Source: Burkholderiales bacterium (GTDB taxonomy: Bacteria > Pseudomonadota > Gammaproteobacteria > Burkholderiales > Burkholderiaceae_A). From it: 64,000 bases of DNA. This document shows positions 36,889 through 50,978 of this stretch, piece by piece (the stretch's first letter is position 1; every line of letters begins with the position of its first letter). The DNA lies in assembly GCA_027486725.1 (NCBI GenBank), contig JAIXOP010000011.1, positions 62,001 through 126,000 on the forward strand, read 5' to 3'. Below the pieces are notes generated by a model. It ran no database searches. It was not told the DNA's origin and was given only the letters and a program-made list of their open reading frames with translations. Position numbers and translations under genes: made by a program.

Positions 36889-36892
<4 letters not shown>
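36422..36892 (-). CDS. greA: Transcription elongation factor GreA
   Basis: It is 156 residues. The N-terminal coiled coil carries the GreA tip acidic pair in [17 protein letters not shown], followed by the FKBP-like C-terminal domain ending [38 protein letters not shown]. It rescues backtracked RNA polymerase. The ATG overlaps the carB stop (ATGA), so it is coupled to carAB. Confidence 0.96.
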
Positions 36893-40135
<3,243 letters not shown>

Positions 40136-40143
<8 letters not shown>

Positions 40144-41380
40144 TCGGTGCGCTCATCAGTGAGACGAAATGATCGAAGAGGGGAAGCAGGTCGTGGGGTC
40201 CGGGGCTGGCCTCGGGGTGCCCCTGGAAGCAAAACGCCGGCGCGGATTTGTGGGCCAGGCCCTGAATCGACCCATCAAAGAGCGACACATGCGTGACCTC
40301 GAGGCAGTCGGGCAGCCCCTCGGCGACCACCGCAAAGCCGTGGTTCTGGGCCGTGATGGCCACGCGGCCGGTGCGCAGATCCTTCACTGGGTGGTTGCCC
40401 CCGTGGTGGCCGAACTTCATTTTGTGGGTCTTGGCACCCGCCGCGAGGGCCAGAATCTGATGCCCCAGGCAGATGCCGAACAGGGGAATGCGGGCGGCCA
40501 TGGCCTGGCGGGCCACCTCGATGGCGTAGGTGCAGGGCTCGGGGTCGCCAGGGCCGTTGGAGAGAAAAATGCCCGAGGGCTGGAGGGCCATGGCCTCGGC
40601 ATACGGGGTCTTGGCGGGAACCACGGTCACGCGGCAGCCGCGATCGACCAGCAGGCGAAGGATGTTGGTTTTCACGCCAAAGTCGTAGGCCACCACATGG
40701 TGAACCGGCGAGGCGGGGGCCTGACGATGGCCCTGACCCAAGGTCCAGGTGCCCTCACGGAATTCGTAGGGGGTGGCGCAGCTCACCACCTGGGCCAGGT
40801 CAGCGCCCACCAGGCCACCAAAGCCGCGGGCAGCAGCCAGCGCGGTCTCGGCGTTGGCCATCTGGCCAGCGGCAGCCGCGTGGATGGCGCACGACTGGGC
40901 GCCACGATCGCGCAGGGTGCGGGTGATCTCTCGGGTGTCGACGCCCGAGATGGCCACCACTCCCGCGGCGGCTAGGGCCTGGGCGAGGGACTGATTGGCA
41001 CGAAAGTTGGAGACCACCGGAGGAAGGTCTCGGACGACGAGGCCCGCCGCCTGGATGCTCGACGATTCGAAGTCCTCGGCGTTGAAGCCCACATTGCCGA
41101 TGTGCGGGTAGGTGAGGGTGACCACCTGATGCTTGTAGCTCGGGTCGGTCAGGATCTCCTGATAGCCCGTGAGCGAGGTGTTGAACACCAGCTCGCCCAT
41201 GGTGGTCCCGGCCGCGCCCATGGACTGGCCCCAGAAGAGCTCACCCGAGGCCAGCGCGAGAACCGCGGAGCGCGCCTCGCCGGCGCCTGCGGCGCCCGCA
41301 GCGCGGAGGTGGTCGGAATTTTGGGCGTGCGAAGAGTTGGGCTCGGCACCGGCCAGAGCCAACAGCTGACGAAGCTGCAA
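40136..41380 (-). CDS. carA: Carbamoyl phosphate synthase small subunit
   Basis: It is 414 residues from a TTG at 41380, supported by AGGGGG at correct spacing and a TATAAT 28 bases upstream. The class I glutaminase has its nucleophile Cys304 in [11 protein letters not shown] and the partner His in [13 protein letters not shown]; the N-terminal domain has [15 protein letters not shown]. About 35 residues precede the usual family start ([12 protein letters not shown]), a longer than normal N-terminus rich in Ala and Gly. It hydrolyses glutamine and channels ammonia to CarB. Confidence 0.94.
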
Positions 41381-41407
41381 AGTGGATTCCCCCTAGAAGA
41401 CCCGCGC

Positions 41408-41413
41408 ATTATA
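41408..41413 (-). promoter_or_regulatory. Predicted -10 box of carA
   Basis: A perfect TATAAT on the minus strand is positioned for a transcript start about 20 bases before the TTG start of carA. The -35 region is poor (TCTGAC at about 16 bases), which suggests an activated or regulated promoter. Confidence 0.5.
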
Positions 41414-41483
41414 GCCGGGCCTCCCGGGGTCAGACGGCCCTCAGGCCTCGGGCCAGAGTGCCCGAGGGGCCTGCACCGGGGAA

Positions 41484-41513
41484 GTTTTGAAGGACGGTGT
41501 TTTGAAGAACGGT
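41484..41513. repeat. 15-base direct repeat, two copies
   Basis: GTTTTGAAGGACGGT is followed at once by GTTTTGAAGAACGGT, directly beyond the stop codon of the MAPEG gene. Confidence 0.8.
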
Positions 41514-41514
41514 A

Positions 41515-41901
41515 TCAAAGGGGCTTGGGGGCCGACTGGAAGAAGATCGCCACCGTCAGACCAATGCCGACAAACCAGACCAGGCTTCGGGCCGTGGCCA
41601 GATTGCCCACATAGAGGGCGATGTAGATCAGCCGTGCCGCGATGAAGGCCATGGCCAGCTGATCGAGCTGCGCACCAGCGCCACCGTTGTGATGGGCCAC
41701 CAGCATGGCGGCAGTGAATAGGGCAAAGGCCTCCCAGCTGTTGAGCTGGGCTGCGTTGGCACGAGCCTGGTAGCCCTCACGGCGGGCCAGCCACTCGCGC
41801 GGATTGCGGTTGTCGTAGCGGCCGGGTCCGGCCTTGGCAATACCGACACACACAATCGGCAGAAAGCCGGCAATGAAGAGGCACCACTGAGCAATCGACA
41901 T
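41515..41901 (-). CDS. MAPEG family membrane protein
   Basis: It is 128 residues with about four membrane spans. The KAGPGRYDNRNPREWLARREGYQARANAAQLNSWEAFALF segment is the conserved loop of bacterial MAPEG (eicosanoid/glutathione-related) proteins. Enzymatic activity is unknown. It lies between carA and recR on the same strand. Confidence 0.85.
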   Translation of the reverse strand: MSIAQWCLFIAGFLPIVCVGIAKAGPGRYDNRNPREWLARREGYQARANAAQLNSWEAFALFTAAMLVAHHNGGAGAQLDQLAMAFIAARLIYIALYVGNLATARSLVWFVGIGLTVAIFFQSAPKPL

Positions 41902-41913
41902 AAAGACTCCTGG

Positions 41914-42597
41914 CTATGGTTGTTTTAAAGAGAGTGGTTTCGGAGGCAGCGGGGGAGACTCTGGCGAGGGCGACAGCGGACGCCGCTCGCGCAGTGCCTG
42001 GGCAATGGTACCGAGATCGACATACTCCAGCTCGCCCCCCGCGGGAACTCCCCGAGCCAGGCGCGCGATGCGCAGGGGCGGCGACAACCCCTGCCCCTGA
42101 AGCAGGGTCTCGAGCGCATGGGCCGTGGCCTCACCCTCGGGCGTGAAGTTGGTGGCGATGATGACTTCCTCCAGCCCCGGCCGGCGGGCCTGCTCGAGGA
42201 ACTGGGGCAACGGCAGTTGGGAAGGCCCAACGCCATCGAGCGGAGAGAGCCGCCCCATCAGCACAAAGTAGCGGCCTTGAAAGGAGCCGGTCTGCTCCAG
42301 CATCAGCATGTCGGTGGGCGTCTCCACCACACAGAGCTGCGCCTCCGACCTGCCCCCATCGAGGCAGAGGCCGCAGATTGGCTCTTCAGAAAAGGTGTTG
42401 CAGCGGGCGCAGTGGCCAATGCGGTGGAGTGCGCCCAGCAGCGACTGGCCGAGCCGCTCGGCGGCTGGGCGATCCGACTGCAGCAGATGGGTGGCCATGC
42501 GTTGCGCCGTCTTGGGGCCAACACCCGGGAGTGCCTGCAGGGCATCCACCAGGGCCGCCAAAGAGGCGGGCATCGCCGACGGCGCGGTCTTGGCCAC
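41914..42597 (-). CDS. recR: Recombination mediator RecR
   Basis: It is 227 residues from a GTG at 42597 with AAGG upstream (an ATG at 42573 is the alternative). Helix-hairpin-helix [18 protein letters not shown], the zinc finger [16 protein letters not shown], and the Toprim domain with [16 protein letters not shown] and [12 protein letters not shown] are present. The C-terminus has an extra Pro/Ser-rich tail of about 20 residues. It loads RecA in the RecFOR pathway. It sits in the common dnaX-ybaB-recR order. Confidence 0.95.
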
Positions 42598-42611
42598 GGG
42601 CCTTGCGCTGC

Positions 42612-42947
42612 TCAGAACTTCATTCCGGGGGGCAGCGGCATGCCGGCCGTCACCGACGACATGCGCTGCTGGCTGGCGGCATCGATCTGGCTGTGCGCGC
42701 CATTGAGGGCCGAGGTCAGCAGGTCTTGCAGCGTCTCGACATCGTCGGGCTCGGCCGAGCCGAGCAGGCTGGGTGCCACGCGAATCGAGACCACGTGGTG
42801 CTTGCCATTGACCTGCACCGAAACGAGCCCCGAGCCGGCCTCCTGGGTCACCACCATTTGGGCGACCTCGTCCTGTGCCGCCTTGATTTTGTCCTGCATG
42901 GCCTGCGCCTGCCGCATGAGGCCTGCGAGTTGTCCTTTGAGCATCAC
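42612..42947 (-). CDS. ybaB: YbaB/EbfC nucleoid-associated protein
   Basis: It is 111 residues, starting [29 protein letters not shown] and continuing with [20 protein letters not shown], the family signature. It is a small dimeric DNA-binding protein. Its ATG overlaps the dnaX stop by 4 bases. Confidence 0.95.
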
Positions 42948-44581
42948 GAATCTCCGTGGGAGGGTTTGGCCCCGGCATTGGGGCGGATGGAATCGGGCAG
43001 GATCTTGCCCTGAAAATCGTGCAGCAAGGCCTGAACCACCGGCGAGGCCGAAATGGCCGCCTGGGCCTCGGCAAGCTCCTTGGCCGACTGGGCATCGCGG
43101 CGGGCCAGCACGGTGTCGGCGGGGACCTCGGCCGCGCCGACCCGGACCTCAACGCTCACCGCGCAGGCCAGGGCCTCGCTCAAGACCTCGGCCAGCCGGA
43201 GCCGGGCGCGGCTGTCGGCCAGGCTCGCGCTGGCCACCGACAAGCGCACGGGCTGTCCTGCCGCCTCGGGCCATGCCTCGAGCGTGGACTGCACCGCGAG
43301 TTGTCGGGTCAGCCCCACCACCGGCAGCGAGGCCGCCAGAACTGGCCAGCCGCCGGGGGGCAATGGGGGTGGAACCGCGCCCTCGGCCCGCACCACCGCC
43401 TGAACCGGCGCCGGTGCCAGCAGGGGGGCCGTGGCCCGAGGCGACATCGGGGCTGGGGTGCGGCCCGCCATGGCGTCGGGCCGGAAAGCGAGCAGCCGAA
43501 GAATGGTGGCGCGCAGACCGGTGGTCTCGTCGGGGGCCAGGCCCAGATCGCGCCGCCCCAGGATGAGAATTTGGTAGAAGAGCTGAAGGCCCTCGGGCTT
43601 CATCGATTGGGCGAGATCCACCCAGGGCTCGGACGACTCCCCCAGAACCTGACCCACCGAGATGTCGTGCACCAGTCGGGCCAGGCCCTCCAGGATGCTC
43701 TCGGCCAGCGCACCCTCGGCCACCAGAGCCTCGGCGGCAGCCAGGGCCTGGGCGGCATCGCCCGCCGTCACCCGCCGAAGCAGCTCCAGAAGCGCCTCGC
43801 TGCCGACCCGGCCCAGCATCGAGCGCACGGTCGCGCCGTCGACGCGTCCGCCACCCACAGCGATGGCCTGATCGGTGAGCGAGAGAGCATCGCGCACACT
43901 GCCCTGCCCCGCCTGAGCAAGAAGGCGAATGGCCTCGGGCTCGTGGCCAATGCCCTCGGCCTCGAGCACTCGAACGAGGTGCTGCTCGAGCACCTCGGGC
44001 CGCACATTGCGCAAGGAAAACTGCAGGCAGCGCGAGAGCACGGTGACCGGGATCTTTTGTGGGTCGGTGGTGGCCAAGACGAAGATCACCCGGGGGGGCG
44101 GCTCCTCCAGGGTCTTGAGCATCGCATTGAAGGCATGGCCGCTCAGCATGTGGACTTCATCCACCACAAAGACCTTGGTGCGGCCGGCCGACGGGGCAAA
44201 TCGGGACTGCTCCAGCAGCTGCTGAATTTCACCAACGCCGCGGTTGGATGCGGCATCGAGTTCGAGGTAATCCACAAACCGGCCGGAATCAATGCCCACG
44301 CAGGCGCTGCATTGGCCACACGGCTCCGAGCCCACACCGACCTCGCAGTTGAGGGCCTTGGCCAGGATGCGGGCCAGGGTGGTTTTTCCCACCCCGCGCG
44401 AGCCGGTGAGGAGGTATGCGTGGTGGAGCCTGCCCTGGGAGAGCCCGTGCTGGAGTGCCGCGACCACCACTTCTTGGCCGATGACCGACTCAAAGCGCCG
44501 GGGCCGGTACTTGCGCGCCAGCACAGCGGGGGCGGTGTTGCCGCCCGCGGCAGCGTTGGAGTCGGGGAAAAGGCTATCCAA
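42944..44581 (-). CDS. dnaX: DNA polymerase III subunit gamma/tau
   Basis: It is 545 residues from a TTG at 44581 (start uncertain; a GTG at 44680 would begin inside the SRP RNA gene). [18 protein letters not shown], Walker [12 protein letters not shown], zinc-binding CGQCSAC, Walker [11 protein letters not shown] and sensor LSRCLQF are the clamp-loader features, followed by the collar and an Ala/Pro-rich linker. I found no AAAAAAG-type slippery site, so a separate gamma form by frameshifting is not evident. It comes before ybaB and recR. Confidence 0.93.
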
Positions 44582-44659
44582 GTGGGGAGTCCAGCGTGAG
44601 GTGTCGAGCGGCGGGTTCAGCGTTGACGTCCAGCGGCGTTGCCTGGGCAGACCGGAGGG

Positions 44660-44757
44660 GGCGAGCCGTTCCCCCGGCACTTGAAAGTGGCTGCTGGGGC
44701 TGCTTCGTTCCCGACCTGACCCGGTTGACAGTCTTCCAATGCGGGGCGACCCGCCCG
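44660..44757 (-). ncRNA. ffs: Signal recognition particle 4.5S RNA
   Basis: The minus strand contains the universally conserved apical sequence GGGTCAGGTCGGGAACGAAG followed by CAGCCC, flanked by complementary GC-rich arms (GGGCGGGTCGCC... and ...CGGCTCGCCC) forming one long hairpin of about 98 bases. This is the Ffh-binding SRP RNA. Ends are approximate. It lies just upstream of dnaX, as in several other bacteria. Confidence 0.88.
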
Positions 44758-44767
44758 AGCCCGAAGT

Positions 44768-45418
44768 CTACCCCCGATTGATGGCAAGGCTGAGCACGAA
44801 CTCCTCGGCTCGGGAGTCCGACTGGCGAAGAACCTCGCCCGAGGCCAGGAGCAGAAAACCCTCGGGCAGGGTCGATGGCGCTCCGGCGAGCATCTGCCGG
44901 TATTGCCAGAGCTGCGCGCCGTAGGTCTCCCACTGCGGTCGGTCGGCCTGCCATTTGTAGTCGATGACCCGACGAACCTCGCCCGAGGCCGGCTCGCGCA
45001 GCAGCAGATCTGGCCTGCGCTGTCGAAGCAGGCCTTCGCCATCGATGTCGGCGAGAAATCCCACCTCCACCTCCCGCACGAGCAGGCCTGCGGCGCTCTT
45101 GGACGCCGCCGCAGTGGTTGATGACGCATCGGCCAGCCCGAGGAGCTGTCGATGCGGGGGCGACCGGAGAATATCCAGGACCGAGGCCACGACCTCGGCC
45201 TGCACGACGCCCGGTAGGCCCATGGGCGCCAGCAGGCGTTGGACCCAGGGGCTGCGGCAGACCCGGTCCACCGAATCATCGCTGCCCGAATCGGGAGCGG
45301 GCCGGCCATCGAGCCAGACCAGAAGTGGCGTCGGCACCTCCAGCAGCCGGTGAAAGGCCATCCCACGCCGCTGCGGCAGGGTGTTGGTGGGGGTTGATGC
45401 TGTGAAGACCCCGGTCAT
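44768..45418 (-). CDS. Stand-alone PD-(D/E)XK nuclease, AddA nuclease-domain equivalent
   Basis: It is 216 residues from an ATG at 45418 that overlaps the helicase stop (ATGA). It carries the RecB-type nuclease set: GMAFHRLLE (His23, Glu27), RPDLLLRE (Asp137), VIDYKW (Asp153, Lys155) and AQLWQYRQML. In canonical AddA this domain is fused to the helicase C-terminus. Here it is a separate but apparently coupled gene with all catalytic residues kept. Together the two proteins (913 + 216) are about AddA length. Confidence 0.85.
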   Translation of the reverse strand: MTGVFTASTPTNTLPQRRGMAFHRLLEVPTPLLVWLDGRPAPDSGSDDSVDRVCRSPWVQRLLAPMGLPGVVQAEVVASVLDILRSPPHRQLLGLADASSTTAAASKSAAGLLVREVEVGFLADIDGEGLLRQRRPDLLLREPASGEVRRVIDYKWQADRPQWETYGAQLWQYRQMLAGAPSTLPEGFLLLASGEVLRQSDSRAEEFVLSLAINRG

Positions 45419-48156
45419 CGAACGGCCACCTCTGCAGAAGCGGGCCACGGCCGCACCTCACTCTGGGCGAGGGCCCAGAGGGCGGCCAGTCCACTGGGAC
45501 CGGCCTGCGCATCGCCGAGGTGTTGGAGGGCCGCAGCCTTGGGCGGCGCCAATCCCGAGAGCAACACCATCGACTGCGCCCGCGTCATCGCGACATAGGC
45601 GAGATGGAAATCCTCCTGCACCCGATGCTGGCGGAGGGCGCGCCAGCGCTCGAGCAGCCCACCCAGCGCGGGGGGCTCCGAACGGCTTCCCAGGCGCAGG
45701 CCCGCCAGATGGGCATGGCCATCCGCCCAGTCCTCAAACAGCTGAAGGCCCGACTCGGCACGACGCCGCGAGTCCATGCCCGCCAGGATGACCACCGGCG
45801 ACTCCAGGCCCTTGGCCGCGTGCACCGACTGGATCTGAACCGCATCGAGGGTCTCGGGCAGAACACCCGGCCCGCCCGTGGCCTCGCCGCCGGCCAGGAG
45901 CCTCTCCTCCATGTCCTGAAGGCAGGGCAGCAGGCCCGGAAGTCGGCCGGCCTCGCTCTGCAAGGCAAAAACCAGCAGCGCCTGCAGGTTGGCCAGAGTC
46001 TGGGCGGGCGGCTGCGGGGCATAGCCCAGGGCCCAGCGCTCCGGGCCCGAGCAACGCAGGATGTCACTCAGTGCCTCGGCTGCCGGAAGGACCGGCAGAA
46101 TGGGCCTGAGCAGGCTCGCCCACTCGGAGAGCTGTTGGGCGGCATTCTCGCCAGGCAGCCAACATCCTGCCGCCGCCAGGCGATGCTCGATGGGCTCCAG
46201 CCCCTCGACGGCGAGGGCCCGAGCCAAGGACAGAAAATCCATCACCTCGGGCGAGGCCAAAAGACCCGACGCCCGGCTCGTGATGAAGGGAATGCCCGCC
46301 TCGGCCAGGCCGGCCTCGTAGGCGGGAAGCTGGGTCTTCACCGGCAGCAGGATGCGAATGTCTCGGTATGCGATCGCTCCGGCGCCATCGCCCACCAGCT
46401 GCACAATCGCCGCAGCGATTCGGCGCCCCTCGGCCAGCGCCGCCGGGGGCGCAGAGTCCTCGTCATCGTCGGCGGAATCATCTGCACCGGAGGCGTGGGG
46501 TGCTCCCCGCGCCTCGGGGAGATCGCTGACTGAGGCCTCCGGTGCGGGCAGCCGCCAGGTGCCGTGGAGTTCCAGGGGCACCGTGCTCTGCGCCTTGGGC
46601 TGCGAGGCATGGGGTCGCAGGACCTCGCCACCGGGAATCCGGGGGCAGAGGCGGTTGAGATCGTCGACCACGGCCGGGCCACAGCGTCGGGTCGTGTCGG
46701 TGGCCTGAAGCACCGCGTTGTAGTGCGCGACCAGCCAATTGCTGGCAGAGCGGAACATGGCAAGCTGGGCCCCGCGAAAGCCGTAGATCGACTGCTTGGG
46801 GTCGCCCACCAGAAAGACCGCCGGATGGTTCGCCTGGGGAATGCTCTGGCCGGTGTAGGCCTCGAGCCAGGTTCGGATCGTGGTCCACTGTGCCGGGCTG
46901 GTGTCTTGAAACTCATCGAGCAGAATCTGCTGATACCGGAGGTCGAGCCGCGACAGCGGATGCGCACTGCCCTCGCCCTGCACCAAGGACAGCGCAGCCG
47001 CCTCAATGCCGGCGTGGTCGGTTTCATTGGTAGCGGCCTCATCATCGAGCTGAACCCGCTCCCAGAGGTGGGCGAGATCGGCGGCCAGACGCGTGCGCAA
47101 GCCATGTCGAGCCTCCCACTGGTGGGCCTCGGCCGCCAGCAGGGCCTCGCCCAGCCGGCCGAGCACCTCCGAGAGGCCCGAGGCCTGAAGTGCCGCCTGG
47201 AAGGCCTTGTCGCCCAGCTTCTTGCGCAAGGCGCGGTGGGGCGGCTGATCGAGGTCGAAGAGTTCGGGAACACTCTTGGTGCAGAAGCATTGAATCCAGG
47301 CCGCCCAGAGGGCATCGATCTCACCGGGATGGTCGCGCCAGGCCTGGCAGGCGGCATAGAGGGGCTGCGCCGTGGACGAGGCCTTGGACTGAGGCATGGC
47401 CGCCGGCAGGCCCTGCGCAAGCTGCTCGATGTCGGCGCGATGCTGCTCAAAAAAGCCCGCCCGATGGGCCTGCCGCCAGACAATGTAGCCATCGGCAGTG
47501 GATGCCTCGGGGGCCATGTTGTCGATCGGAGGCCACAGCGGTCCCGCCCGAAGGCTGCGCTGCGAGCGGCGCGCGGCCATCGCATGCAACAGACCCATGG
47601 CGGCGGTTTCTCCCTCGAGGGCAATGAGCTGGGCCAAGGCCGAGCCGCGTCGCCCCAACGATCTGCGCAAGACCTCATCGATCTGCCGGCGGCGCTGCTG
47701 CCAGGGCCGGGGCGCGAGTGCCAATGACTTGAGCCCCGCCAGAGGCAATGGACTCGATCGGAGAAGCCGCTGGTTCCACGCATCGAAGGTGGTGATGGTG
47801 GGCGCATGCTCCGCCGCCAAGAATCGCTCGTAGACCTCCGAGGCCTGGCCCGCCAGACGGTGGGCCTCTTCCTCGGTGAGCCCCATAGCGCGCAACGACG
47901 ACTCGGCCTCGGCCTCGCCCAAATCGGCGAGTTCCCGCAGGCGAGCGCTGACCCGCTGGGCCATCTCTGCGGCTGCCTTGCGCGTGAAGGTCAGGGCCAA
48001 GATCGCCTGAGGTGGGATGCCCTCCAAGAGGCAACGCAGGATGCGCGCACTCAGCAGCCAGGTCTTGCCACTGCCCGCGCAGGCCTCGACCACCACGCTG
48101 CGGCGCGGGTCGGTGGCAACCCGAACATCCAGGGCCGATGCGTTCACGGGCGTCAT
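45415..48156 (-). CDS. UvrD/AddA-type helicase lacking its nuclease domain
   Basis: It is 913 residues. Superfamily 1A helicase motifs: I ACAGSGKTWLLS, Ia ALTFTRKAAAEM, II QILLDEFQDTS, III VGDPKQSIYGFRGAQ, V VQIQSVHAAKGLESPVVIL, VI VAYVAMTRAQ. This matches the AddA/RecB helicase core but ends after motif VI, where the nuclease domain would begin; the next gene supplies it. It overlaps the AddB-like gene start to stop by 4 bases. It probably unwinds double-strand break ends. Confidence 0.9.
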   Translation of the reverse strand: MTPVNASALDVRVATDPRRSVVVEACAGSGKTWLLSARILRCLLEGIPPQAILALTFTRKAAAEMAQRVSARLRELADLGEAEAESSLRAMGLTEEEAHRLAGQASEVYERFLAAEHAPTITTFDAWNQRLLRSSPLPLAGLKSLALAPRPWQQRRRQIDEVLRRSLGRRGSALAQLIALEGETAAMGLLHAMAARRSQRSLRAGPLWPPIDNMAPEASTADGYIVWRQAHRAGFFEQHRADIEQLAQGLPAAMPQSKASSTAQPLYAACQAWRDHPGEIDALWAAWIQCFCTKSVPELFDLDQPPHRALRKKLGDKAFQAALQASGLSEVLGRLGEALLAAEAHQWEARHGLRTRLAADLAHLWERVQLDDEAATNETDHAGIEAAALSLVQGEGSAHPLSRLDLRYQQILLDEFQDTSPAQWTTIRTWLEAYTGQSIPQANHPAVFLVGDPKQSIYGFRGAQLAMFRSASNWLVAHYNAVLQATDTTRRCGPAVVDDLNRLCPRIPGGEVLRPHASQPKAQSTVPLELHGTWRLPAPEASVSDLPEARGAPHASGADDSADDDEDSAPPAALAEGRRIAAAIVQLVGDGAGAIAYRDIRILLPVKTQLPAYEAGLAEAGIPFITSRASGLLASPEVMDFLSLARALAVEGLEPIEHRLAAAGCWLPGENAAQQLSEWASLLRPILPVLPAAEALSDILRCSGPERWALGYAPQPPAQTLANLQALLVFALQSEAGRLPGLLPCLQDMEERLLAGGEATGGPGVLPETLDAVQIQSVHAAKGLESPVVILAGMDSRRRAESGLQLFEDWADGHAHLAGLRLGSRSEPPALGGLLERWRALRQHRVQEDFHLAYVAMTRAQSMVLLSGLAPPKAAALQHLGDAQAGPSGLAALWALAQSEVRPWPASAEVAVR

Positions 48157-50720
48157 CCTCGACAGACCCCCGCGGCCGGGCAGTGCTGGCAGGCCTTGCC
48201 CCCCGTGCTGGCGCGAGCCCAGGCCGGAAACGCATTGGACTCCAGGGCCCGCACCAGGGCGGACTCCAGCCGGGCCAGGACGCCGGGCTCCGGTGTGGCC
48301 TCCAGCAGGTCAAAGCCCTCGCGCTGCATGGAGACCAGACCGAGCTGGGTCACAGGCCAGGCAGGCCGATCGGCGGGCGGCGAGATGGCGAGCATCTCGG
48401 CATAGACCTGCAGCTGCAATGCGCCTGCGCCAGCGAATGGCTGATCGCCGTGCGCAATGCCATCTTTGAGCGTGCGCCGCAGGGACGAGGCACCGGTGGA
48501 TTTGAAATCGAGGAGTCGCCAGCTCTGAGGATGCGGCCGGTCGAGGCGATCGAACTGCCCCACCAGGGTGGTCCCCAGCACCGCCAGGGGCACTCGAAGC
48601 TGGAGTTCGCTGGCCTCGTGCACGACCCCCAGCGCTTGCTGTGCCCGAATCCAGGCCACCGCAGCCGGGGCCCGCTCGAGCAACGCCGGCACGCGGGGCA
48701 GGCCAGTTTGTTGGGCGAAGGCCTCGACCACCGCCTCGACCTCGACCGGAGCCTCGACCTCGGCCTCGGGCAGCGTTGCCGCAGCGAGCCACTGCATGAA
48801 TCGGTGCAAAACGACTCCAGCATCGCTGGCCCCGGGGCTCGGCGCGAGGCTGGGGGCATTGCGGCCCCCCTGCAAGACCCGCCAGGAGAAGCGCTGCGGG
48901 CAGAGGGCGAAGTCGACCATGGCGCTCACACTGAGCTCGGCCGGGAGCTGCGGCACAGCCTGCAGCCCGGCCGCCGCATGTGGGCGGTGGGGTGAGCCCT
49001 GGGGCAAGGCACCGGTGGTTGGCCGGGCGGGAAGAGCCTGGACACCGCAGAGCCAGAGCAGGCGCTCCAGAGGCCTCGACCAGGCCAGGGCCTGCTCGGG
49101 CGCCACACGAATGCCCAAGAGGTCGAGGCGAGCCCCCCGCTCGAGGATGCGCAGGATGGCCCCCAGAACCAGCCGATGCTCCTGCCCCGGCGCGAGCTCA
49201 CCGAGGAGCATGGCCTCGGTCTCGGACTCGGCCAGGCGGGCCGGTGGCTGCGGCGGGAATTGATCGGCACTGCCGCCGAGGAGCAGCACATCGGCATCGA
49301 CCATCTGGGCGGCCTCCTCAATGCCCACCACCCGCACCAGGGCCTGCGGACTGCGCAGGGTCAGATTGGCCTCTTGGAGACTGCGGCGCACCAGAGCGAG
49401 GTATCGCGGCCCTGTGATGGCGACGTCACCGCTGCTGGCTGCGGCCGCCTGCAGGGCAGACCAGATCGCCACCCCGCCCTCATCGGATTGGATGCAGGAC
49501 ATGAGGCCGAGCTCGGTGATGCGCTGCTCGAGCTCCATGTGCCAGGCCAGCGCTGGCCCCTCGGAGAACGGCCAAGGACGGATGGCCCGCAACAGCCCAG
49601 GCGGCAGGCTGGGGATGCCAGGATTCAGTGGACGACGGGCACGATCGGCGTGCCACCGCGCAAGGCCATCGGAGGGCCAATCGTCGGGAAGCCCCGGCAG
49701 GCTCTGAACCCAGGGATGGGAGAGCCAGGCGGCCAGCGCCTGATGCGCCGATGCGTCGAGGGCCACCTCGAGCAGGCCCAGAACCGCCGTGCTGGAGACG
49801 CTGGTGATGAGGCTGTAGCCGCTGGGGTCGTGCAGGGGAAGGCCAGCCTCGCGGGCCAAGGCCTGGAGCCGGCGCAGCAAGAGCCGATCGGCGGCCACCA
49901 GAGCAAGCCGACGGCCCTCGGCGCTCGCCTGCAATCCCCGCTCCAGGGCCCAGCCGGCGGCCTGCTCCAGGGTGCTCGCCTCGAAGGCTCGGAGGCGCAG
50001 CCCCCAGGGCGCAAGGACCTGCCTGCGCTGCGCGACGGTGTGCGCCGGCTGGGTGGGCACGGCCCCCGCAGATGTCCCCGCCCCAGACAACACCTCGGGG
50101 AAGGCCGCCGCAGACCGCTCGAGCGATTCGGGAAGCCAGGCAAGTTCCAAAGGCTCAACCCGGCCCCCCCAGCCCACCGCGGCCACCGCCTGCGCGAGGG
50201 GACTGGCAGGTCCCACCGAGACCAGCACCGCAGACTCCGCGGACTCCGGTGGATGGCGCTGGAGCCAAAACGCCAGATCGTTGGGATCGTGGGCTGCCCG
50301 ATAAATGGGGGCCAGAATTGGGAGGGTGGTCTCGGGTGGCGCCCAGGGGACGGCAAGCAGGCCGGCGGCTTGGGCGACCTCCAGAAAGTCCCAGCACTCA
50401 AAAAGCCGAACCCATTCGGCCGCAAGCTGCTGCGCTGCGGCTGGGCTCATGGGCGGGGCCGAGGCATCGAGCTGACGATGTTCCAGCAGCGCTGCAAGCT
50501 CGGCGACCCTCTGACGTCGGGAGCGTGGAACGTCATCAACTGCGCGCGCACGGTGCAAAAAACCCTCGTCGATGGCCTCGAGTCCCAGCCAGCGGGGCAG
50601 GACCCGGGCACCACGGCCCGCCATCAAACCCTGGATGGCCGGCCTCAGGCCCGGTCGAGAGACCAGAAGGGTCGTGCTGTGGCTGCAGTGGTCGAGGATG
50701 TCCTGGGCTTGCGAGGGCAT
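48153..50720 (-). CDS. AddB-like PD-(D/E)XK nuclease / inactive helicase
   Basis: It is 855 residues from the ATG at 50720 (50753 also possible). The N-terminal half resembles the degenerate helicase of AddB, without a clear Walker A. The C-terminal nuclease domain has GVVLHRFMQ, GQFDRLDR, LLDFKSTG and QLQVYAEML. One cysteine in ALCPQRF plus a terminal ACQHCPAAGVC (Cys-x2-Cys-x5-Cys) give the four ligands of the AddB iron-sulfur staple. It is first of a three-gene break-repair operon with the helicase and the split nuclease. Chi recognition is inferred only. Confidence 0.87.
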   Translation of the reverse strand: MPSQAQDILDHCSHSTTLLVSRPGLRPAIQGLMAGRGARVLPRWLGLEAIDEGFLHRARAVDDVPRSRRQRVAELAALLEHRQLDASAPPMSPAAAQQLAAEWVRLFECWDFLEVAQAAGLLAVPWAPPETTLPILAPIYRAAHDPNDLAFWLQRHPPESAESAVLVSVGPASPLAQAVAAVGWGGRVEPLELAWLPESLERSAAAFPEVLSGAGTSAGAVPTQPAHTVAQRRQVLAPWGLRLRAFEASTLEQAAGWALERGLQASAEGRRLALVAADRLLLRRLQALAREAGLPLHDPSGYSLITSVSSTAVLGLLEVALDASAHQALAAWLSHPWVQSLPGLPDDWPSDGLARWHADRARRPLNPGIPSLPPGLLRAIRPWPFSEGPALAWHMELEQRITELGLMSCIQSDEGGVAIWSALQAAAASSGDVAITGPRYLALVRRSLQEANLTLRSPQALVRVVGIEEAAQMVDADVLLLGGSADQFPPQPPARLAESETEAMLLGELAPGQEHRLVLGAILRILERGARLDLLGIRVAPEQALAWSRPLERLLWLCGVQALPARPTTGALPQGSPHRPHAAAGLQAVPQLPAELSVSAMVDFALCPQRFSWRVLQGGRNAPSLAPSPGASDAGVVLHRFMQWLAAATLPEAEVEAPVEVEAVVEAFAQQTGLPRVPALLERAPAAVAWIRAQQALGVVHEASELQLRVPLAVLGTTLVGQFDRLDRPHPQSWRLLDFKSTGASSLRRTLKDGIAHGDQPFAGAGALQLQVYAEMLAISPPADRPAWPVTQLGLVSMQREGFDLLEATPEPGVLARLESALVRALESNAFPAWARASTGGKACQHCPAAGVCRG

Positions 50721-50978
50721 GGGATTGTGGTAGTCTGAAGCGCAGTAGGGCATGCATGGCGGGCATTGAAACACCCAAGCCCCCATTAAACAGTCTCTCC
50801 GGATCGTGCGGTGATCCTGCACCGGTCCAGTGCTCAAAACCCCCAAAAATCCCAAAAATTCTTCCGCTGGCCATCGCCCATTCCCGACGGCGTCTTGGCC
50901 ACCTCAGGGCCCAACCCAGCGTGGCCGAATCAAGCCCCCCAGTCCATTTCCACTCCTTCCCAACCCAAGGACCATCCC

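Follow-up and report, generated by a model that had tools for sequence, protein, structure and literature searches.

The window, by which we mean the whole 64,000-nucleotide stretch of DNA analysed here, comes from the draft genome of a Burkholderiales bacterium (1.66 Mb, 84% complete) and carries on its minus strand three genes transcribed in the order addB, helicase, nuclease, each joined to its neighbour by an overlapping ATGA. The addB gene (48153-50720, minus strand) encodes 855 amino acids from the ATG at 50720, evidently the start adopted in the earlier note, within an open reading frame (48153-50855) that would give 900 from a TTG, and its stop codon overlaps the start of the following gene at 48153-48156 (minus strand). 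This second gene (45415-48156, minus strand), an addA helicase gene with an ATG start and a TGA stop, encodes 913 amino acids; motif VI (YVAMTRA) lies 53 residues upstream of the C-terminal end, and the nuclease domain is absent. Another ATGA, at 45415-45418 (minus strand), holds both the stop of the helicase gene and the start of an AddA-type nuclease gene (44768-45418, minus strand), which encodes 216 amino acids from the ATG at 45418; a longer version of this frame (44768-45448, minus strand) would begin with the GTG at 45448 and reach 226 amino acids. The overlap suggests that the translation of both genes may be coupled. Thus, the layout described in the earlier note, a 913-residue AddA-type helicase that stops after motif VI and a 216-residue nuclease sharing its ATGA, is indeed what the reading frames contain.

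The three genes belong to a larger array (36889-50720) of recombination and replication genes, in which addB, addA, the nuclease gene, dnaX, ybaB, recR, a MAPEG-type gene, carA and carB are all encoded on the same strand; the names dnaX, ybaB, recR, MAPEG-type and carA reflect our reading of the window's open reading frames. The neighbours are alike in the stretches fetched from three related genomes (G002, G025 and G011). On the other side of addB, trxA and rho are encoded on the plus strand.

As expected of an AddA motor, the first half of the split protein is a UvrD-like SF1A helicase with conserved motifs: it matches the Pfam UvrD-helicase family (E 9.6e-37) and retains the SF1A motif residues common to all 45 aligned AddA proteins. 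Its best NCBIfam match, addA_alphas, reaches 178.8 bits against a cut-off of 860.75, and addA_Gpos 113.8 bits against 707.65, cut-offs that fused betaproteobacterial AddA proteins may miss too; the window nuclease and AddB have no NCBIfam match. A scan of the genome contigs with the window helicase as sole query gave no match. The predicted helicase model (pLDDT 81.6) aligns to RecB residues 5-876 (5ld2_B, Z 26.7) and to AddA residues 10-954 (4ceh_A, with the end given as 954-961; Z 22.6). The partner protein has what defines an AddB, a RecB-type nuclease and four cysteines. It matches PDDEXK_1 (E 9.5e-21), and both its cysteines (C652, C889, C892 and C898) and its nuclease residues (H684, E750, D769, D783, K785, Q814 and Y818) are identical in all 19 aligned AddB proteins, in agreement with the earlier note, which had the AddB partner keeping its nuclease and its four-cysteine cluster. 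RecC, the partner that would indicate a RecBCD enzyme, was not found in the window genome, which is 84% complete.

Our family sample comprised 26 genomes from the window's genus (g1) and two other genera (g2 and g3). AddA was found in 14 of them: six of 11 in g1, one of eight in g3 and all seven in g2. Two further matches of the AddA search (G007 and G010) were left out since their genomes carry RecC, and were taken for RecB. All six AddAB-bearing g1 genomes and the single g3 copy (G025) are split within the same linker, while the g2 copies are fused (7/7), including one (G013) that spans two contigs but is unbroken where helicase and nuclease meet. The split helicases measure 884-921 amino acids and the nucleases 162-226, counted from the first start codon, and the helicases are 33-62% identical where compared; most of the split genomes other than the window's are drafts in many contigs. 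Beyond the family sample, the best 80 AddA loci of named genomes comprised 75 fused loci (those whose frame stays open for 183 codons or more past the helicase match), three split loci, all from g1, and two that ran off the contig end. A strict motif pattern matched 40 of the 75, and the 39 of the 75 that were aligned have the invariant nuclease residues. The question raised by the earlier note, whether relatives have a fused or a split gene, therefore receives a double answer: g1 and G025 are split, whereas fused orthologues occur in g2 and outside the family. Chance is excluded by the single arrangement found in seven of seven split genomes, and its presence in distant members of the lineage suggests that the split enzyme works.

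Nine positions are identical in every one of the 57 AddA nuclease domains aligned, and the small nuclease has all nine (G19, H23, E118, R135, D137, D153, K155, Q169 and Y173 in window numbering); the earlier note had credited it with the whole RecB-type motif set. This alignment contains six split and 51 fused sequences, the latter being 12 from the genome search and 39 of the 75 fused loci. The g3 nuclease stays outside it because of an ambiguous base; it agrees in an alignment of the seven split nucleases, where the catalytic residues are kept in 7/7 genomes and the conserved glutamate falls on a nearby window residue (E116 in the 7-row alignment versus E118 in the 57-row alignment). A nearly invariant arginine, at position 138, is leucine in the window and tryptophan in two other split members. 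On its own, the window nuclease stays under the Pfam cut-off (PDDEXK_1, E 0.023); five of the seven split nucleases match this family, the best with an E of 5.7e-6, and a hidden Markov model built from all seven recovers the fused AddA in each of the seven g2 genomes, none of which is in the model (E at most 1e-32). The AlphaFold model of the nuclease (pLDDT 86.7) has AddA as its best VIA-align match (4ceh_A 1043-1232; Z 9.9, rmsd 5.5 over 160), although RecE, Dna2 and a Cas4-like protein score practically the same, all at most one Z unit apart; a plain Foldseek search places the Cas4-like ACE1 on top, and AddA is first only under VIA-align. The predicted fold is thus of the RecB/Cas4 type, and it is sequence and locus that point to AddA. 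A search of PDB sequences with the nuclease profile gave one match, to an RNA-splicing protein (E 0.021), which we took as chance.

What separates the two halves has also changed. Between motif VI and the conserved nuclease histidine, all 13 fused proteins compared have 76-112 residues, and all seven split ones have 45-75, summed over both pieces; the tether appears to have lost some of its length. The helicase model aligns up to about the start of the RecB linker (residue 876, against a linker given as 870-929 in PMC13101046), which locates the break within the tether. A 20-row helicase tree groups all seven split copies in a single clade (92/90) beside the fused g2 copies, the window and g3 copies being long branches. 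Placing G025 outside g1 and g2 costs 3.3 log units (p-AU 0.25), and neither this placement nor that of g3 with g2 (p-AU 0.12) is rejected. A CarB tree does not fix the order of the three genera, and a single fission in the ancestor of g1 and g3 is therefore compatible with it. This is the simplest history; two separate fissions are possible. Drift of the overlap after fission can give the mixed reading frames described below. A g1 contaminant in the G025 genome was also considered and is unlikely, as its split addAB lies on a contig with its own Rho and CarB, and this CarB groups with g3.

In all seven split loci a start codon for the nuclease frame lies 3-10 nucleotides ahead of the final base of the stop codon that ends the helicase, with an additional one at 0 in two members. 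Relative to the helicase, four members (the window, G004, G008 and G009) have the nuclease in the -1 frame, and the other three (G002, G003 and G025) in the +1 frame. These junctions bear on two trivial readings of the locus. We give next to no credence to a sequencing or assembly error, or to a nonsense or frameshift mutation that has recently broken a fused gene in the window genome alone. The window genome is admittedly an incomplete draft and fused orthologues are the rule outside, and one genome of our class survey (G381, locus L192) does have an in-frame stop past motif VI, after which the nuclease domain goes on in the same frame, in a stretch with ambiguous bases. However, the split is shared by all five other AddAB-bearing g1 genomes and one g3 genome, with a shortened tether, and its two relative frames and differing overlaps cannot be explained by one indel or by one conserved frameshift signal. 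The earlier note had reasoned that a mutation or sequencing error would be indicated if every close relative had a fused orthologue differing by one base at the junction; instead, the split recurs in two frames, and the note's proposal of a separable nuclease subunit is supported. It is also very unlikely that ribosomal frameshifting joins both frames and thereby still yields a fused AddA: the nuclease frame does stay open over the 19-157 bases ahead of the end of the helicase stop, but the required shift would differ among the members (-1 in four of them, +1 in the others), inspection by eye found no slippery heptamer at the window junction, and a start codon is present at the junction in 7/7.

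A third reading, more serious and still unlikely in our judgement, is decay: the AddB nuclease would suffice, the AddA nuclease would be turning dispensable and its gene would be on its way out. There are precedents for such a loss. In another family of the same order (f42; G066, G110, G249 and G307, loci L158, L159, L160 and L161), AddA ends 36-39 residues past motif VI in four of four genomes, no nuclease gene follows, and a search of these genomes (98-99% complete) with the 57-row alignment at E 0.01 found no AddA-type nuclease (0/4, with 5/5 controls found), while AddB retains its nuclease residues in the three genomes aligned. Two more members of the class (L194 and L195, in genomes G662 and G601) are truncated with no nuclease in open frames of at least 110 codons within 1.8 kb downstream, and isopod Wolbachia are described as having lost the AddA nuclease domain through a stop codon (PMC4224334). 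Decay would also fit the dN/dS values, which are higher in the split genus than in g2 and highest in the window. Against it, the catalytic residues are kept in 7/7 nucleases though the helicases are so divergent, and the junction start codon is likewise kept in 7/7. Thus, f42 indicates that the AddA nuclease can be lost altogether, whereas in g1 and G025 it is detached yet kept. A last alternative is that the small nuclease has left AddAB and acts elsewhere, for example as a free exonuclease or together with the products of the nearby dnaX or recR. Its gene adjoins dnaX-ybaB-recR, but the neighbours are the same in the fused relative G011, so this position is inherited, and the gene it overlaps is that of the helicase; we regard this reading as scarcely plausible.

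The dN/dS values deserve a closer look. For nuclease, helicase and AddB, respectively, they are 0.36, 0.20 and 0.24 (G002/G003), 0.19, 0.28 and 0.38 (G008/G009), 0.36, 0.30 and 0.41 (G008/G003), and 0.57, 0.38 and 0.57 (window/G003), with dS near saturation; the fused g2 pairs give 0.10-0.17 for the helicase and 0.13 for the nuclease in the sole pair that is not saturated. All values are below 1, yet by this measure constraint is weaker in the split genus than in g2, and weakest in the window. The generally higher values of the split genus fit with relaxed constraint. Moreover, the window helicase is only 33-37% identical to those of its genus mates, against 86-87% for CarB (six full-length genus matches), and its terminal branch measures 2.83, against 0.12 for CarB. 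This fast evolution makes partial decay in the window's own species possible.

RecC was found in five of the 26 family genomes, exactly the five g1 genomes without AddAB. AddAB and RecBCD thus replace each other within g1, with split AddAB in six of the 11 genomes and RecC in the other five; in one genome (G001, locus L191) dnaX adjoins trxA, with addAB missing between them. As RecC occurs only where AddAB is absent, AddAB is the sole enzyme of its kind found in six g1 genomes. In seven of the eight g3 genomes (G012, G014, G016, G018, G020, G022 and G024) neither AddAB nor RecC was found, and four of these seven have stop codons within the CarB match.

The wider taxa were covered by two surveys. 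The order survey comprised 300 genomes, 123 of them with a match, and short frames were fetched from six: the four f42 genomes, and G075 and G182, whose contigs end at, or at most 155 bases from, the helicase match. Short pieces in G031, G054, G076, G159, G217 and G264 were left out. The class survey comprised 369 genomes, 129 with a match, and eight short frames were fetched, five of which reach the end of the fetched stretch, this being the contig end for four; G340, G349, G522, G530, G555, G571 and G584 were left out. Among the short frames fetched in both surveys there was no second coupled split.

We consider it likely, with the alternatives weighed above, that gene fission cut and shortened the tether and so produced a version of AddAB, the machine that trims back broken DNA ends for repair, with three polypeptides: an AddA motor, a free AddA nuclease and AddB. 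The sequences themselves show the common split, the catalytic residues kept in all three proteins, the shorter tether, the common locus and the mutual exclusion of AddAB and RecC among the g1 genomes. An ancestral fused addA would have been broken in the tether that leads from the helicase to the nuclease domain at the C-terminus, with the halves retained as adjacent overlapping genes, and ribosomes finishing the helicase would re-start on the nuclease. Crystal structures of AddAB show the AddA nuclease on a surface of AddB, in position for cutting the 3'-ended strand, which Chi is proposed to sequester (PMC4824097). By analogy, the free nuclease may dock non-covalently on AddB at the same site and cut the 3'-ended strand, while the AddB nuclease would cut the 5'-ended strand; Chi would presumably exert its control by steering the 3' strand away, like in ordinary AddAB.

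It is tempting to speculate further about the missing tether. In one RecBCD study, the nuclease domain is absent from the density in 18% of particles (PMC5030088), and another takes it as undocked and held by its linker (PMC13101046). A nuclease that undocks with no linker to hold it could be lost from the complex. We entertain as a tentative, rather doubtful extension of the three-polypeptide enzyme that the nuclease is a dissociable subunit, which either leaves for good at Chi or is never present on some complexes. If so, the switch from destruction to recombination would be made by subunit loss, not by strand steering, and the cell could contain two enzyme populations, one that carries the 3'-strand nuclease and one that lacks it.

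Neither the components nor the pathway of this enzyme are new: split AddA descends from AddAB and shares its locus with the fused addAB of relatives, but the C-terminal RecB-type nuclease that an AddA carries in one chain is here present as a separate gene. In the open-licence literature, outside which most subscription papers lie, we found no description of an AddA split into two conserved coupled genes. Compared with fused AddAB (g2, and Bacillus subtilis for structure), the helicase, both nuclease active sites, the AddB cysteines, the order addB-addA and the locus are the same, and split AddAB should, by analogy, work like AddAB; what differs is that AddA consists of two polypeptides, with the tether cut and shortened. 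RecBCD with an undocked RecB nuclease domain (7MR1/7MR2) resembles it in having a nuclease able to leave its dock. However, the RecB nuclease is reported to stay on a linker of about 60 residues, while split AddA encodes no covalent link (PMC13101046, PMC5030088). The addA of isopod Wolbachia likewise ends ahead of the nuclease domain, by a premature stop that is described as deleting it (PMC4224334), whereas here the domain has a gene to itself, whose start codon is present at the junction in 7/7 genomes. The laboratory-made RecB-delta-Nuc CD is likewise a motor complex without a covalent nuclease, but as described it was made by deletion, with no nuclease encoded alongside (PMC13101046); split AddA has one. 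The need for a covalent tether, and undocking of the nuclease during work, are under study for RecBCD (PMC13101046). Here the tether has been cut in nature with both halves kept across a genus, and a single order offers fused (g2), split (g1) and missing (f42) AddA nucleases as a ready comparison set.
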